Origin: Mesorhizobium sp.
Lineage (GTDB): Bacteria; Pseudomonadota; Alphaproteobacteria; Rhizobiales; Rhizobiaceae
NCBI RefSeq assembly: GCF_024710845.1
Contig: NZ_JANJTZ010000053.1
Location: 62,001 to 126,000, forward strand
Length of the DNA: 64,000 bases
Direction: 5' to 3'
In this document: positions 6,369-15,597 of the stretch, in pieces
How the letters are laid out: every line of letters starts with the position of its first letter
Numbering within the stretch: the stretch's first letter is position 1
Program-made: the position numbers and the translations under genes
Notes under the pieces: model-generated
Databases searched by the model: none
The model's input: the letters and a program-made list of their open reading frames with translations, nothing else
Told to the model about the DNA's origin: nothing

Positions 6369-6743
6369 TCAGCGGCTGATCGACGCGATGAAATCCTTCA
6401 CCTCGTCGATTCGCGCGGCCAGATGCAGCAGCAGCGATTTGTCATCGGGATCGTGCTCGATCTCGGTCGCGGTCTTCGCAACTCCGAACGCTCCGATCCC
6501 CGAGGCCGAGCCCCGCAAGCCGTGTGCGAGGAATTTCCGTTCCGAAGCGTTGGCGCTCGAGATCCGATCGCGAACCATGGTCGCCTGCTGGACGAAAAGT
6601 GCCAGCACCTCGCGTTCAAGATCCCGGTCTCCGAGTGTTTGTTTTGCCAGGTGCACGAGATCGACCGGCCGCGTGCGCGAGGGCGGGCATTCCTCTCCGC
6701 CGGGATTGGCAAAGGCCACTGTCTGAAGATTCGCTTGCGGCAT
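6369..6743 (-). CDS. Orphan Hpt (histidine phosphotransfer) domain protein
   Basis: The internal ATG gives 124 residues: a disordered N-terminal 25 residues and one Hpt four-helix bundle. The phospho-accepting histidine is His74 in LAHGLRGSASGIGAFGVA, which follows the H-x-L-[KR]-G-S-A pattern. No kinase or receiver domain is attached and none is encoded nearby, so its partners are unknown. The 36 extra residues upstream in the ORF are not domain-like. It is divergent from the giant coiled-coil gene across 279 bases and upstream of ferredoxin. Confidence 0.85.
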   Translation of the reverse strand: MPQANLQTVAFANPGGEECPPSRTRPVDLVHLAKQTLGDRDLEREVLALFVQQATMVRDRISSANASERKFLAHGLRGSASGIGAFGVAKTATEIEHDPDDKSLLLHLAARIDEVKDFIASISR

Positions 6744-7022
6744 GCGCCCGGTCCCGATGTGCTCTGATGGAACAAACTTAGAGGAAGGCGACCAACAAGC
6801 CGTTAACGACGCTGGACGGCAATAGGGCCTCGGCCATGCCGATTTTCCCATATCCGTCGCGTTGTTAACCTTATGTTTAAAGTTTTACACATGGGTTGGA
6901 ATGCAGGTTTCAATTGCCGGGTCGTGCCATTACGATACGAGCACGTGTAATTTCGCGTTGCGCGCGGGCTGTGGGGAGCCGGAAACGGTTGGGTCGCGCA
7001 CTTAGTAGAGGGTTGTAGCTGC
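6744..7022. promoter_or_regulatory. Divergent intergenic region between hpt and the giant coiled-coil gene
   Basis: These 279 bases hold no convincing gene and must contain both divergent promoters. It includes three TTAA cores at 6803-6806, 6865-6868 and 6877-6880. The last two are separated by 8 bases, in TTAACCTTATGTTTAA. This is close to, but not the same as, the CtrA consensus TTAA-N7-TTAA known from alphaproteobacteria. A GAGGG about 11 bases before the ATG at 7023 is a loose ribosome site. Confidence 0.4.
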
Positions 7023-10000
7023 ATGGCGCGTAAACCAAACACCACGTCTCCCATCGACCGCGACGTGGACAAGGAACTCGAAAAGGCCCTCGAATTCGAC
7101 CTCAACGGCGTTGAGGAGATCGACTTCTCCTCGTCGATGGATGAACTCGAGGCGCAGATATCGCAGGCCGCCGACGACCTCGTCAAGGAAAGCCGCGGCG
7201 GCACGACATCCGCCAGCCCCCAGGCAGCATCCACGGGCTCCAGCAGTTCCCAGACCGCGACCGCCTCGCGCTCGGCCCCCAATGCTGCCGGCAAGGCGAC
7301 GGCGAGCACTTCCAAGTCGGCGGCAAACACGCCTGCGGCCCCCTCGACTGCAAGCGCCGGGTCGGGCGCCAGGAAGGGCGAGCCGCTTCGCCCCGTCGAG
7401 GCACCCGCTTCGTCGTCGGCTCCTGGGCCGATCTCGTTCCAGCCCGCCAATGACGACCGTCAGCGCGAGTATCAGTCTGTCCAGCAGTCTCTGGCACGCG
7501 GGACATCGCGCACGCTTTCGGTTTCCATGGCGCTTCTCAGCGTAGCGTGGATCGCAGGCGGGCTCGCTCTCGGCCACGTTCTCTACGCGCCGCAGATATG
7601 GGCGATCCGCTCGATGCAGCAGCTTCTTGCCATGCCGCAGGTGATCGCGCTCGCCATTGGGATCGTCGTGCCGCTGCTCCTGTTCTGGGCGTTCGCCGCG
7701 ATGATGCGTCGCGCGCAGGAGATGCGCCTCGCCGCACAGTCGATCGCCGAAGCGGCATTCCGCCTCACCGAGCCCGAGAACCTGGCCGAAGACCGTGTCC
7801 GCAAGGTCAGCCAGGCGGTCCGCCGCGAAGTCCAGGCCATGGGCGAAGGGATCGAGCGCACGCTCGCACGTGCGGTCGAACTCGAGACGCTGGTTCATAC
7901 CGAGGTCAACGAACTCGAGCGTGCCTACAGCGAAAACGAAATGCGTATCCGCTCGCTCGTCGACGGGCTCGGCAGCGAGCGCGAAGCGGTGATCACGCAT
8001 GCGGAGCGTGTGCGCGCCTCGATCTCCGGCGCTCACGAGCTGCTGAAGGAGCAGCTCACCTCCTCGAGCACCGTCATCCACGACAGCGTCGCCGATGCGT
8101 CGACCCGGCTGACCTCGATGATTTCCGGTTCGGGCGAAATACTGGTCAATCGCATCAACGACAGCGGCCGCGCGATCTACTCGGCGATCGATGAGCGGAT
8201 GGACACGATCTCCGATCGGATCATCACATCGGGCGAAGCGTTCGCCAGCCTCCTCGACACGCGTATCGCCACCCTCACGGACCGTACCGACGAAGCCTCT
8301 CGTGCCCTGTCGGATATGCTCGACAGCCGCACCTCCGACATGGTGTCCCTCCTCGGTGGCACGTCCCGCACGCTGGCGGAAGAGTTCGATTCGCGCCTTG
8401 CCGGCATCGAGCGCACTCTGGCCGAGCGCGGGCAGACGCTGATCGGCGAATTCGAGACACGTGTCCAAGCGCTGGACCAGGGCACCGCCACACTCAACGC
8501 CGCGCTCGAGGCGCGCGCCCGCCAGATCAACGAGACCCTCATCGAGCGTGCCCGCGAGATCGCAGGCGCCTTCAGCGCCGGCAAGGAAGGCATGGCCGGG
8601 GTCATCGAGGAAACCAAGTCTCGCATCGGCGCGGATCTCGCCGAACTCGTCATGTCCACCTCGACGATGCTCGAAGGCCGGGCGAATGAGTTCACCCAGC
8701 GCCTCGAAGGTGGCCGACACCTCATCTCGACGGCACTCGACACGGATCTCGCCCGTCTCGCGGATGCGCGCGCCGCGCTCGACGAAACCGTCGGCGCCCA
8801 TGCGATGAAGCTCGCCGAAGGCCGCAACTACCTGTCCAGCATCCTGCAGGAGGATCTGGCGCGCGTCGAGGAAACCCGCGCGGAACTCGACCAGCGCCTG
8901 GAGGGCCACGCCCAGATGCTGGCGCAGGGCCGCACCGTGCTCACCAACGCCCTGGACGACGACATGCGTCGCCTTGCCGAAGCCCGGGCCGAAATCGACG
9001 CCCGGATTGCCGACCATACGGCGACCCTCGACGAAGGCCGCAGCTTCCTGTCCCGGGTTCTCGATGAAGACCTGGCGAAGCTGGAGCAGATCCGCGGCGA
9101 GATCGACAGGCGCGTCGAAGCGCATTCGCACCTTCTCTCCGAGGGACGGAGCGTTCTGTCGGGCGTCATGGACGAGGATCTTGCGAAACTCGCCCAGGCT
9201 CGGGCCGCGATCGACGCGTCGGTGGAACGCCATGTCGAGAAGCTGGCCGAAGGCCGCGATATCATGACCCACGCGCTGCAGTCGGATCTGGAGAAGCTTG
9301 CCGCGACACGCGCCGAGATCGACAGCGCGATCCAGAGCGGCATCGCGCGCCTCGCCGACGGACAGGGCGACGTCGGTCAGGCCCTCTCGCTGGAGATGGC
9401 GAAGATAGAAGACGCATTCCGCTCCCAGATCGGAGTCGTCGAAGGGCGCACGCAGGCCATTGAAGCCGCATTGGCCAATGGCGTCGAGAATGTACGCACG
9501 GTTCTCGAGCGGAGCGCGGGAGCGGTCGCCGGTGCGCTGCGCGACCGGGTTCTGGAAATCACGGCGGCCCTCACCGAGGACGCCGGCCAGGCCTTCCAGG
9601 ACGCGGACCAGAAGATCGCCGAACGCATCGATCTCGCCAATACCGCCTTTTCGGCGCGCGCGGCCGAGATCGCAAAGGCATTCGAAGAGGTGGACGGCAG
9701 GATCGTCGGCCGTATCGACCAGGTGTCGGATGCAATTTCGCGCCGCACGGACGAATTCGCTCTGACGATCGATCATGTCGACGGCAAGCTTGCCGGGCGG
9801 ATCGACGCCGCTTCCGGGATCATCGCGAACCGGGCCGACGAGCTCTCGCGCGCCTTCGAACAGGTCGACGAGAAGCTCGGCGAGCGCATCCAGGAAGTGA
9901 CCACCGTGGTGGCGACGCGCGTTGGAGATCTCTCGCGCGCAGTCGCGAAGGTTGACGAACGGCTTTCGGAGCGGATCGATCAGACCTCTTCGACGATCGC

Positions 10001-12755
10001 AGCACGGTCCGACGATCTGGTGCGCGTCATCGACCAGGCGGACGCCAGGTTCAGCGAACGCGTCGAAATGGCATCCGGCATGATCTCGGCCCGCGCCGAC
10101 GACCTTGCCCGTGCCGTCGAGCAGATCGACGGCCGGCTGGTCGAGCGGATCGACCTGGTGACCAGCGCCGCCGACGCGCGCGCCGACGATCTCTCGAAGA
10201 CCATCCAGCAGATCGACGGCAAGATTTCCGAACGCATCGTCCTCGCTTCCGATCTCATCAACGCGCGGGCGAACGACCTGTCGAACACGATCAGCCAGGT
10301 CGACGACCGGCTCGCCCAGCATGTCGACATCGCCGCCGACAAGCTCACCGAGCGCGCCCAGGATCTGGTGCGCACCTTCGATGATGCCGATTCGAAGATC
10401 GTCGAACGCATCGACTACGCTTCGGGTCTGTTCAACGCCCGGGCCGAGGATGTCGCCCGCACTTTCGCGAACGTCGATCGCGCAATCGAGGATCGCCTGA
10501 ACGTCGCCGCCAGCACCATCACCGAAAAGGTGGGAGAGCTCGACCGCACCTTCAGCGACGCCGACCAAAAGTTCGCCGAACGCATCGACCTCGCGGCGGC
10601 CGCGATGGCCGCGCGCGCCGATGACCTGTCGCGGGCTTTCGACAATGTCGATCAGAAGCTCGTCGACCGGATCGACTATGCGGGCAGCGCGCTTTCCGCC
10701 CGTGCGGAGGACTTCGCCGGCGTCTTTGACGCAGCCGACCGCAAGCTCGCCATGCGTCTCGAGGAAGGTTCGGCCGCGCTGTCCGATCACGCCGACGGCA
10801 TCGTGCGCGCTTTCGACGATGTCGACCGCAAGCTGGTCGAGCGTACCGAGCAGACTGCGGAGGAACTGCACTCGCGGGCCCGCGCCATCGAGGACACGCT
10901 CGTCAACATCGAGCACCGCCTCGGCGACAGCGCCGATTCGATCGTTGCGCAGATGGGCAACCAGATCGATTCGGTCGAGCGTCGTCTGGCGGAAGGTGCC
11001 GAACTCGTCGGCCAGAAGCTGATCGAACAGGTCTCGGTCTCCGAGGCTCAGCTCGTGTCGCGTGCAAACGTCATCGCCGAAACCTTCGCGGCGGTGAACA
11101 AGCATATCGGCCAGCGCACCAACGAGGCCGCTTCCACCTTCGATGCGCACACGCGCGAGCTGAGCGAGATGCTCGCCAATCGCACGGCCGAGATCGGCCG
11201 CGTGCTCGACGAACAGGCCAAGCCCCTCGTCGAGAAGTTCTCCGAGAGCGGCGGCGAACTGCAGCGCAGCCTCGAGGAGGCGACCCATGCCGCGACGGAG
11301 CGTCTGCGCACCGAGAATGCGGCCCTGGTCAACGCGCTCGCAAGCCGCACCGCCGAGACTCTGGCCGCGGTCGACAAGGCGCGCAACAGCCTTGGCGAAG
11401 GCGTTGCGGACCTGATCGACAGGCTGGCATCGTCGAACGCCCAGCTCGGACATCTGATCAACGTGGCGTCCAACAACCTCTCCGAGCTCGAGGAGCGGCT
11501 CTCGGGAACGACCCATTCCTTCGCCACCTCGGCGGAGAAGGCGGCGCAGACCTTCTCGAGTTCCGCGCGTCTCATCGACGTCAACGCGACGAAACTCACC
11601 GAGCTGTCGTCCAGCACGCTCAAGGACATCGCCGCGATCGCGCATCGCTTCGACGACCACAGCCGGGTGCTGGCCTCGGCGTCCGACCTCCTCGGTTCGG
11701 CGCAGTCCAACCTCGCCTCGACGCTCGACGACCGCCAGTCGGCACTCGAGACGCTGGCCGTCGGCCTCGTCAAGAAGTCCGAGGACATCGAGCGTGTCAT
11801 GCGCTCCTTCGAGAACCTCGTGGAACGCGCCTTCGACAAGGCCGATGGGCGTGCCCGCGAGACGACCGAGCACATGCGCAACGCCGTCTCGGAGGTGGTG
11901 GAATCCGCGACCCAACGCTTCGCCGATGCGACGCAGGAAATCCGCCGCTCTGCCAGCACCATCCGCACTGAGCTGGAAGAGACCCGCAACGAGTTGCGCA
12001 AGGGTGTCCTCGACCTGCCGGAAGAGACCAAAGAGACGACCTCGGCAATGCGTCGCGCAGTCGCCGAACAGATCAACGCGCTCAAGGAACTGTCCGACAT
12101 CGTGGCGCGCTCGGGCCGCACGTTCGACAATGGCGGCAAGTCTGCGTCGCTGCCACGGTCGGCGCCGCCCGCTGCCCGCCTCGACGCCCCGGCTCCCCGC
12201 GCGCCTGAGCCACAGAAGCGTCCGCCGGTTGAGCCGCAACGCGCCGAAGCGCCCCGCCCTGCAGCGCCGCGTGCGCCCGCTCCGCGGCAGCCGGAACCCG
12301 CCCAGGGCGGCTGGGTCAGCAACCTGCTGCGCCGTGCCTCGGAAGAAGGTGAAGCGGAACCTGTTGCGCCCGCCCCTGCCCGTGCCGAGGCGCCCCAGCG
12401 GTCGCCGCTGCACGTCGTCGAATCGCTCAACTCGCTGTCGGTCGATATCGCGCGCGCGATCGATCACGACGCGTCGATCGAACTGTGGGACAGGTATCGC
12501 CGGGGCGAGCGCAATGTGTTCACCCGCCGGCTCTACACGCTGAAAGGCCAGCAGACGTTCGACGAGATCCGTCGCAAATACGAGGCCGAGCCCGAGTTCC
12601 GCTCGGCGGTGGACCGCTACTGCGACGACTTCGAACGCCTGATCGCAGATGTCACCCGGACGGACCGCGATTCGATGATGGCGCAGACCTATCTCTCTTC
12701 CGACACCGGCAAGGTCTACACCATGCTGGCGCATGCGAGCGGACGCCTGAAATAG
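7023..12755 (+). CDS. Giant membrane-anchored coiled-coil protein, GPR/RgsE-like polar growth factor
   Basis: This 1910-residue protein has an acidic N-terminus (FDLNGVEEIDFSSSMDELEAQ), a Ser/Ala/Pro linker (60-140) and two membrane segments at about 164-186 and 206-227. Over a thousand residues of helical coiled coil follow, containing six 36-residue repeats (575-790) and fifteen 29-residue repeats (868-1302). A Pro/Ala-rich linker (about 1709-1793) leads to a folded C-terminal domain (about 1796-1910, RRGERNVFTRRLYTLKGQQTF). This matches what I know of Agrobacterium GPR and Sinorhizobium RgsE, apolipoprotein-like proteins of about 2100 residues that ring the growth pole; automated annotation often calls such proteins kinesin-like. 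The family assignment is inference from architecture. A strong terminator follows. Confidence 0.75.
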   Translation: MARKPNTTSPIDRDVDKELEKALEFDLNGVEEIDFSSSMDELEAQISQAADDLVKESRGGTTSASPQAASTGSSSSQTATASRSAPNAAGKATASTSKSAANTPAAPSTASAGSGARKGEPLRPVEAPASSSAPGPISFQPANDDRQREYQSVQQSLARGTSRTLSVSMALLSVAWIAGGLALGHVLYAPQIWAIRSMQQLLAMPQVIALAIGIVVPLLLFWAFAAMMRRAQEMRLAAQSIAEAAFRLTEPENLAEDRVRKVSQAVRREVQAMGEGIERTLARAVELETLVHTEVNELERAYSENEMRIRSLVDGLGSEREAVITHAERVRASISGAHELLKEQLTSSSTVIHDSVADASTRLTSMISGSGEILVNRINDSGRAIYSAIDERMDTISDRIITSGEAFASLLDTRIATLTDRTDEASRALSDMLDSRTSDMVSLLGGTSRTLAEEFDSRLAGIERTLAERGQTLIGEFETRVQALDQGTATLNAALEARARQINETLIERAREIAGAFSAGKEGMAGVIEETKSRIGADLAELVMSTSTMLEGRANEFTQRLEGGRHLISTALDTDLARLADARAALDETVGAHAMKLAEGRNYLSSILQEDLARVEETRAELDQRLEGHAQMLAQGRTVLTNALDDDMRRLAEARAEIDARIADHTATLDEGRSFLSRVLDEDLAKLEQIRGEIDRRVEAHSHLLSEGRSVLSGVMDEDLAKLAQARAAIDASVERHVEKLAEGRDIMTHALQSDLEKLAATRAEIDSAIQSGIARLADGQGDVGQALSLEMAKIEDAFRSQIGVVEGRTQAIEAALANGVENVRTVLERSAGAVAGALRDRVLEITAALTEDAGQAFQDADQKIAERIDLANTAFSARAAEIAKAFEEVDGRIVGRIDQVSDAISRRTDEFALTIDHVDGKLAGRIDAASGIIANRADELSRAFEQVDEKLGERIQEVTTVVATRVGDLSRAVAKVDERLSERIDQTSSTIAARSDDLVRVIDQADARFSERVEMASGMISARADDLARAVEQIDGRLVERIDLVTSAADARADDLSKTIQQIDGKISERIVLASDLINARANDLSNTISQVDDRLAQHVDIAADKLTERAQDLVRTFDDADSKIVERIDYASGLFNARAEDVARTFANVDRAIEDRLNVAASTITEKVGELDRTFSDADQKFAERIDLAAAAMAARADDLSRAFDNVDQKLVDRIDYAGSALSARAEDFAGVFDAADRKLAMRLEEGSAALSDHADGIVRAFDDVDRKLVERTEQTAEELHSRARAIEDTLVNIEHRLGDSADSIVAQMGNQIDSVERRLAEGAELVGQKLIEQVSVSEAQLVSRANVIAETFAAVNKHIGQRTNEAASTFDAHTRELSEMLANRTAEIGRVLDEQAKPLVEKFSESGGELQRSLEEATHAATERLRTENAALVNALASRTAETLAAVDKARNSLGEGVADLIDRLASSNAQLGHLINVASNNLSELEERLSGTTHSFATSAEKAAQTFSSSARLIDVNATKLTELSSSTLKDIAAIAHRFDDHSRVLASASDLLGSAQSNLASTLDDRQSALETLAVGLVKKSEDIERVMRSFENLVERAFDKADGRARETTEHMRNAVSEVVESATQRFADATQEIRRSASTIRTELEETRNELRKGVLDLPEETKETTSAMRRAVAEQINALKELSDIVARSGRTFDNGGKSASLPRSAPPAARLDAPAPRAPEPQKRPPVEPQRAEAPRPAAPRAPAPRQPEPAQGGWVSNLLRRASEEGEAEPVAPAPARAEAPQRSPLHVVESLNSLSVDIARAIDHDASIELWDRYRRGERNVFTRRLYTLKGQQTFDEIRRKYEAEPEFRSAVDRYCDDFERLIADVTRTDRDSMMAQTYLSSDTGKVYTMLAHASGRLK
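8745..9392 (+). repeat. Six tandem 36-residue (108-base) coding repeats
   Basis: Residues 575-790 of the giant protein consist of six in-register 36-residue units. Each has the form DLAxLxxxRAEIDxRxxxHxxxLAEGRxxLSxxLxE, for example DLARVEETRAELDQRLEGHA then QMLAQGRTVL. Positions of Leu, Arg, Asp and the EGR triplet are the best conserved; the last unit is degenerate. The spacing is constant with no insertions. At the DNA level the copies are diverged, so this is an old protein repeat, not a recent satellite. Confidence 0.85.
9624..10928 (+). repeat. Fifteen tandem 29-residue (87-base) coding repeats
   Basis: Residues 868-1302 are fifteen uninterrupted 29-residue units close to RIDxASxxIxARADDLxRAFxxVDxKLxE, for example RIDLAAAAMAARADDL then SRAFDNVDQKLVD. 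I counted the register unit by unit and found no length change. Arg1, Ile2, Ala/Arg near 11-13, Asp14-Asp15, Asp24 and Leu27 are the steady positions. The unit is amphipathic and helical, resembling apolipoprotein A-type repeats. A degenerate unit precedes the block. Confidence 0.88.
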
Positions 12756-12843: not shown

Positions 12844-14265
<1,422 letters not shown>

Positions 14266-14631
14266 TCAGTACCAGTAGGGCGGGACCTTGTAGTAGTCGT
14301 AGGAGGCATCCCGCGCGGCCTTACCGTCGTCGCCGGTGAGTTCGTTGATCGAATAGGCGGGCGCAGCCTTCAACTGCTCCTGTGAGAACGGCACGACATA
14401 GCCGCCGCGGCTCTTCTCGTAGTCGAGCGTCGACCACGGGATCGCGTGATACTTCTCGCCGATGCCGAGGAACCCGCCGAAGCCGATGACGGCGAACATG
14501 ATGCCGTTGGAGGATTTCTCCAGCATGACGTCCTCGATGACGCCGATCTTCTGGCCCGCCGTGCTGAAGACGTCCGTGCCGATCACCCTGGAGGCGGGGA
14601 TGGCGTTCGTGTGTCCTGTATGGGTGTTCAT
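14266..14631 (-). CDS. PRC-barrel domain protein
   Basis: From the internal ATG (MNTHTGHTNAIPASRVIG) the protein has 121 residues. The core SRVIGTDVFSTAGQKIGVIEDVMLEKSSNGIMFAVI is a PRC-barrel, the small beta fold shared by photosynthetic reaction-centre H subunits and RimM. The GEKYHAIPWSTLDYE stretch is typical of the free-standing soluble members. These are common in soil alphaproteobacteria and often stress-associated, but no biochemical role is established. The C-terminus ends in an unusual aromatic tail, YDYYKVPPYWY. It has its own terminator. Confidence 0.88.
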   Translation of the reverse strand: MNTHTGHTNAIPASRVIGTDVFSTAGQKIGVIEDVMLEKSSNGIMFAVIGFGGFLGIGEKYHAIPWSTLDYEKSRGGYVVPFSQEQLKAAPAYSINELTGDDGKAARDASYDYYKVPPYWY

Positions 14632-14760
14632 GAGGGCTCCCTTCGAGTCATTGCGTTCGACGAGAGAACGAACGCGGGCTCGAGCGGTTGCTCTCACATT
14701 GGCTCACGTTAAGTAATATTGAGAAATATTTCGTGATCGTGTACTGCGAAACCAGTTCGC

Positions 14761-15597
14761 TCAGCGCGACCGTTTGGCGATGCGATCAAATTCCATCAGC
14801 CGTTCGATCAGCGCCCGCATATCCTTGAGCGGTACCATATTCGGCCCGTCCGACGAGGTCGAGTTGTCAGGATCCTGATGCGTCTCGATGAAGACGCCGG
14901 CGACGCCCACCGCTACCGCGGCGCGTGCCAAAGTCTCCACGAAACGACGCTCGCCCCCGGACGAGCCGCCCTGGCCGCCGGGCTGCTGCACCGAATGCGT
15001 CGCGTCGAAGATCACGGGGGCGCCGATCTCGGCCATGATCGGCAGCGCGCGCATGTCGGAGACCAGCGTGTTGTAGCCGAACGAGACGCCGCGTTCGGTT
15101 ACCAGCACGTTCGGATTGCCGGAACCGGTTATCTTGGCGACGACGTTCTTCATGTCCCAAGGGGCGAGGAACTGGCCCTTCTTGACGTTGACGACCTTGC
15201 CGGTCCTCGCCGTCGCGACCAGCATATCGGTCTGGCGCGACAGGAACGCGGGGATCTGCAGCACGTCGACCACATCGGCGACGATCGCGCATTGCTCCTC
15301 GGTGTGAACGTCAGTCAGGATCGAGATGCCAAGAGCCTCCCGTAGATCGGCGAATACCGGCAATGCCGCGTCGAGGCCCGCGCCTCGAGTGGCGCCGAGC
15401 GAGGTGCGGTTGGCCTTGTCGTAGCTCGTCTTGTAGACGAAGCCGATGCCGAGTTCGGCAGTCAACTCCTTCAACGCACCTGCCATGTCGAAAGCGTGCT
15501 GGCGGGATTCGAGCTGGCAAGGGCCGGCAATGAGCGTCAGCGGCCCTGAATTGGAGAAGCTCGCGGTTCCGACCGTCACGTTTGCGTTGGGCTGCAT
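14761..15597 (-). CDS. kdsA: 3-deoxy-8-phosphooctulonate (Kdo-8-P) synthase
   Basis: KdsA condenses phosphoenolpyruvate with arabinose-5-phosphate to make Kdo-8-phosphate, the precursor of the lipopolysaccharide inner core. The 278-residue length is standard. Motifs seen are IAGPCQLES, YKTSYDKANRTS, DVHTEEQ, VNVKKGQFLAPWDM, FDATHSVQQPGG and ETHQDPDNSTSDGPNM, close to the family signatures. Its ATG shares one base with the stop of the upstream VOC gene (TGATG), so translation is coupled. Confidence 0.97.
   Translation of the reverse strand: MQPNANVTVGTASFSNSGPLTLIAGPCQLESRQHAFDMAGALKELTAELGIGFVYKTSYDKANRTSLGATRGAGLDAALPVFADLREALGISILTDVHTEEQCAIVADVVDVLQIPAFLSRQTDMLVATARTGKVVNVKKGQFLAPWDMKNVVAKITGSGNPNVLVTERGVSFGYNTLVSDMRALPIMAEIGAPVIFDATHSVQQPGGQGGSSGGERRFVETLARAAVAVGVAGVFIETHQDPDNSTSSDGPNMVPLKDMRALIERLMEFDRIAKRSR

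Follow-up and report, generated by a model that had tools for sequence, protein, structure and literature searches.

GPR (Atu1348), a 2115-aa protein of Agrobacterium tumefaciens, forms a polar ring, gives phenotypes upon depletion and upon deletion of its C-terminus, and is important for rod shape (PMC8262873). RgsE (SMc00190), a 2089-aa protein of Sinorhizobium meliloti, is located at the growth pole and interacts with RgsA, RgsS and TolQ (PMC7327166), and a Brucella protein named as an RgsE homologue is found at the new pole (PMC9938171). The 64,000-nucleotide stretch of a Mesorhizobium sp. genome analysed here (the window) contains a 1910-residue open reading frame for which a GPR/RgsE-like identity and a probable growth-pole role had been proposed; that role would be carried over by analogy from the Agrobacterium, Sinorhizobium and Brucella copies (PMC8262873, PMC7327166, PMC9938171).

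The frame was confirmed as a real ORF, and its gene is present in single copy in the 5.36-Mb host genome. An antisense ORF of identical length, 1910 aa, lies at 7002-12734 (-), and GC-rich codons (GC3 0.82) probably account for it; despite this equally long frame, the plus strand was taken as coding because homology backs the plus frame. The protein begins with a variable N-terminus, followed by two membrane helices (predicted at about residues 169-188 and 206-228), a 1465-residue segment, hereafter the rod, a proline-rich linker and a C-terminal domain (Table 1). This is the layout given in the original prediction, whose two N-terminal membrane helices and Pro-rich linker leading into a C-terminal domain were found, and whose thousand and more residues of repeats and coiled coil correspond to residues 228-1693, a span with 3 prolines only and with the periodicity and autocorrelation peaks described below.

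Table 1. Features of the locus, in window coordinates
Feature	Position	Strand	Remarks
Free-standing Hpt (histidine phosphotransfer) protein, likely internal start (about 124 aa)	6369..6851	-	Hpt motif HGLRGSASGIGA
TTAACC-N5-TTTAAA element	6865..6881	+	intergenic to the two divergent genes; kept in relatives; unique in the window
GPR/RgsE orthologue, 1910 aa	7023..12755	+	ORF list, single copy, homology of both ends
N-terminal membrane hairpin (about residues 166-230)	7518..7712	+	45-50% identical to Sinorhizobium and probable Agrobacterium copies
11/22-residue (hendecad) zone, about residues 240-560	7740..8702	+	length constant among close relatives
Six 36-residue repeats (residues 566-781)	8718..9365	+	autocorrelation
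About fifteen 29-residue repeats (residues 867-1301)	9621..10925	+	chief site of between-species length variation
Distal part of the rod (residues 1302-1693), no clear repeats	10926..12101	+	length constant among close relatives
Pro-rich linker (about residues 1694-1795)	12102..12407	+	boundary estimated; overlaps the C-terminal domain by 4 residues
All-helical conserved C-terminal domain (residues 1792-1910)	12396..12752	+	without Pfam family

Orthology was assessed against the closest available relatives of S. meliloti and a probable Agrobacterium genus, which stand in for SMc00190 and Atu1348; the Sinorhizobium genomes were recognised because their DNA is 93-95% identical to pSymB of S. meliloti, and the probable Agrobacterium genus, presumptively, by its telomere resolvase. 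Identity to these copies is 79-80% in the C-terminal domain (110 residues) and 45-50% in the membrane region, and the Sinorhizobium copies, at 2054-2094 aa, fit the length of RgsE. The conserved ends, on whose match the original prediction had staked the assignment, do find GPR/RgsE homologues; judged by these two non-repetitive ends, the 1910-aa protein is a GPR/RgsE orthologue, and it is an ordinary local copy of a known growth-pole scaffold of rod-shaped rhizobia, which do without the usual MreB cytoskeleton. Within the host's family, that of Mesorhizobium and Tianweitania, the C-terminal 121 residues are matched in 296 of 299 genomes. The copy had also been described as about 200 residues shorter than its namesakes, which is true but uninformative: family frames, with short contig-edge fragments left out, range from 1171 to 3392 residues (median 2000), and the window frame stands at the 44th percentile, so that its shortness as a meaningful difference was rejected in favour of ordinary variation. 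In one same-genus copy (L125, G253:C1:4988903-4989266) the C-terminal domain is divided between two reading frames, with the break at about residue 65 of the domain query, through either a sequencing error or a true frameshift.

The C-terminal domain had no family in a Pfam search and no relative by sequence among solved structures. Its AlphaFold model, a check proposed together with the original prediction, comprises seven helices (pLDDT 77.6, pTM 0.73), consistent with the folded domain that had been expected; comparison of the model with solved folds gave no match at E 0.001, where the shallow alignment and the pLDDT make a missed match possible. The domain occurs in 188 of the 199 genomes of the order and, outside the order, in 118 sampled genomes of the class (Alphaproteobacteria). 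In each of the 20 distant copies examined, it forms the C-terminal end of a protein whose N-terminal part has one or two predicted membrane helices, together with a long acidic helix. Outside the order, the homologous proteins are shorter, at a median of 1057 aa. The architecture from which GPR had been recognised is present in the window protein, but it is weaker evidence than implied, being shared by MreB-bearing alphaproteobacteria outside the order.

No true MreB was found in the host genome, where the best match, a 655-aa frame, reached about 61 bits against 426-510 bits for true MreB, and none was found in sampled family members. The Mesorhizobium-like host without MreB very probably grows from one pole, and GPR is a leading candidate organiser for confining rhizobial growth to one pole without MreB. 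Outside the order, MreB is present in 38 of 39 domain-bearing genomes; inside it, two genomes (G424 and G434) carry both MreB and the C-terminal domain. Possession of an RgsE-type protein does not strictly exclude MreB, contrary to a general statement that treats the two as exclusive (PMC7327166). Because the domain coexists with MreB outside the order, it is by itself no marker of polar growth, and its class-wide occurrence alongside MreB argues that the protein is probably older than polar growth.

Along the rod, autocorrelation peaks fall at 11, 22 and 33 in residues 240-560; at 36, 72 and 108 in residues 560-800, where the units are 40-42% identical to each other; and at 29, 58, 87 and 116 in residues 800-1360, with units about 30% identical to each other. 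Hydrophobicity along the rod has a period of 3.63 residues (power 47.7, compared with at most 11.0 in 200 shuffles), the net charge of the rod is about -90, and aromatic residues are few. When 552 rod residues were modelled with AlphaFold as a single-sequence monomer, at low confidence, helices of 67-184 residues and no short hairpins were obtained. In a Chelativorans copy (L069, 1-700) the tandem repeats are near-identical, which suggests that its units were duplicated recently.

Length changes were read from a minimum spanning tree of 87 full-length proteins, in which the 63 edges of 80% identity or more serve as roughly independent comparisons. These contain 88 rod indels, none shorter than 11 residues and most of 11, 29, 36, 58, 65, 72 or 94 residues, whose sizes match whole helical turns; the best period is 3.615 residues (mean cosine 0.92), and the mean deviation from whole turns is 0.19 residue, against a random expectation of about 0.9. 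Indels of the linkers in the same 63 comparisons number 236, are mostly of 1-5 residues and have no phase (cosine -0.19). Rod indels are confined to about residues 600-1250, and the flanking rod segments are constant in length. Over all 86 edges, distant and poorly aligned pairs included, the rule is weaker but clear (mean cosine 0.69, versus at most 0.16 for randomised lengths), and some small rod indels show up there. Among four same-genus relatives, one has no rod indel and three have 87, 174 and 261 extra rod residues, equal to 3, 6 and 9 units of 29. As read from these alignments, the rod of close relatives shifts in length by whole helical turns only, a phase rule that is new here. In-register indels partly come free, because unequal recombination between repeats keeps the register; the part that clearly argues for selection on the rod is that close relatives show no small indels there. 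The rule predicts which rod edits would be tolerated, namely whole turns, and which would not.

The best explanation as a whole, and one that we regard as very likely, is a membrane-anchored GPR/RgsE growth-pole scaffold with a phase-locked rod and a C-terminal docking domain. The N-terminal hairpin would anchor the protein in the inner membrane, the remainder being cytoplasmic; about 1465 residues would then form a near-continuous, acidic, almost untwisted amphipathic helix, which may associate laterally with further copies to build a rod or ring. A flexible Pro-rich tether would expose the C-terminal domain, which is the best conserved part of the protein, as a putative docking site for growth-pole partners; in Agrobacterium, deletion of the C-terminus abolishes function. 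Selection would act on the phase of the hydrophobic stripe and not on exact rod length, units being gained or lost as whole turns, and for that reason exact rod length is unlikely to set ring size finely. The scaffold explanation draws on the localisation and depletion of relatives, and its picture of the rod in part on the low-confidence monomer model described above.

Were rod length to set ring size after all, ring size would differ stepwise between species, by about 4.4 nm for each unit of 29 residues. Such a molecular ruler, in which the length of the rod directly determines ring diameter or distance from the pole tip, would fit a rod of about 220 nm at 0.15 nm per residue, near the published ring diameter of 200 nm, and its length-constant ends around a variable middle; the almost threefold variation of total length in the family, and a spread of more than 200 residues within one genus, make it unlikely. 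A lipid-organising apolipoprotein, with the rod binding or sorting polar lipids, has been proposed from the PF01442 match, which in the window protein lies above the curated cut-off (E 3e-29; 102.4 bits versus 90), and deletions of apolipoprotein-like segments do impair Agrobacterium GPR (PMC8262873). Among homologues with the same ends, however, PF01442 scored 195 and 144 bits in 11-mer members, whereas four further members that were scanned gave 31.6 bits or no match, and the match is weak or absent in homologues with 25-residue repeats; apolipoprotein ancestry was rejected as the explanation of the match because the score tracks the 11-residue periodicity and not descent, and we read the label as convergent periodicity. 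The rod is, moreover, strongly acidic and aromatic-poor, unlike a typical lipid-binding face, and we consider a lipid-sorting function quite improbable. ZorA-like NCBIfam matches fell far under their cut-offs and were discarded as coiled-coil noise. Chance matches come easily to long coiled coils, so an unrelated large coiled-coil protein that resembles GPR by architecture only might be suspected; the identity of both non-repetitive ends already refutes this reading, one match is found in nearly every family genome, and its probability is negligible.

The gene adjoining the scaffold gene on the opposite strand (Table 1) encodes an Hpt motif of the HxLKG/HxLRG class with the active histidine present, and scores 23.7 bits against PF01627, just under the cut-off of 24.6. 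Of the 97 order loci whose upstream sequence reaches far enough, 95, among them that of the window, have an Hpt homologue adjacent to the GPR gene and on the other strand; the exceptions are L072 and the broken L127, and the paired loci include Sinorhizobium, the probable Agrobacterium and distant families. The pairing recurs outside the order in six genomes of four families, and of 99 Hpt homologues 98 retain the active histidine, the exception being a weak distant match. This nearly constant gene pairing is new here; no mention of it was found in the open-access literature searched, where absence is no proof of novelty. At L146 (515-959, minus strand) and at L158, a divergent Hpt-like neighbour has tryptophan in place of the active histidine, and is possibly a degenerate Hpt in another order. 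TTAA-N8-TTAA lies between both genes in 75 of 96 loci compared with 0.0 in shuffles, the loci being related and not independent, and the spacing is 6 in the Sinorhizobium and probable Agrobacterium loci; the window's element resembles a CtrA site, but with a spacing of 8 instead of 7. On the downstream side lie an enolase and a KdsA-like gene (window 12844-15597); conserved synteny with enolase, kdsA or a MATE gene was ruled out, since only members of the genus share this gene order.

The conserved Hpt neighbour hints at a signalling input to GPR, of which no test was found in the literature searched. The scaffold could be under phosphorelay control, the Hpt relaying phosphate between a hybrid kinase (for example of the RdsA type) and a response regulator and so tying the synthesis or activity of GPR to the cell cycle; such control would supplement the scaffold explanation and not replace it. 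The pairing within and beyond the order, the retained histidine and the shared intergenic element all argue for such a relay, as does the RdsA-type kinase, which has no known Hpt partner and near whose gene no Hpt was reported (PMC9022086). GPR expression is nevertheless normal upon RdsA depletion (PMC9022086), the set of loci contains many close relatives, and both the sub-threshold Pfam score of the window Hpt and the non-canonical spacing of the element weigh against it. Phosphorelay control is accordingly possible, at rather less than even confidence. It is a speculative and somewhat doubtful extension that GPR and a dedicated Hpt form an ancient divergent phosphorelay module that times or places the scaffold, the scaffold being a phase-locked, unit-extendable rod derived from an older alphaproteobacterial protein that acts in company with MreB.

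Compared with the described systems, the window protein shares with GPR (Atu1348) a membrane hairpin, a continuous helix and a Pro-rich region, and in GPR the C-terminus is essential. The probable Agrobacterium copies have a C-terminal domain 80% identical to that of the window protein, whereas their repeats are of 22, 44 and 66 residues in place of 36 and 29, and their total length differs, which is ordinary. With the standard rise of 0.15 nm per residue, an extended helix of 1700 residues is 255 nm long. Its length has been given as 600 nm (PMC8262873), and the folding-back argument made there is weakened by the shorter value, although 50 nm foci are still smaller. The copies of the closest available Sinorhizobium relatives are 79% identical to the window protein in the C-terminal domain and 49-50% in the membrane region, but differ in repeat grammar, and the N-terminal 60 residues are only 27-29% identical. 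The Brucella protein is likened to the window protein through its naming as the RgsE homologue and its place at the new pole. In other alphaproteobacterial orders, proteins with the C-terminal domain likewise have N-terminal membrane helices, a long acidic helix and a terminal domain, here 27-50% identical; they are shorter, many have 25-residue repeats (period about 3.57), they mostly lack an Hpt neighbour, and they occur beside MreB, so that the class-wide occurrence of the protein opens its original job to study in MreB-bearing bacteria.
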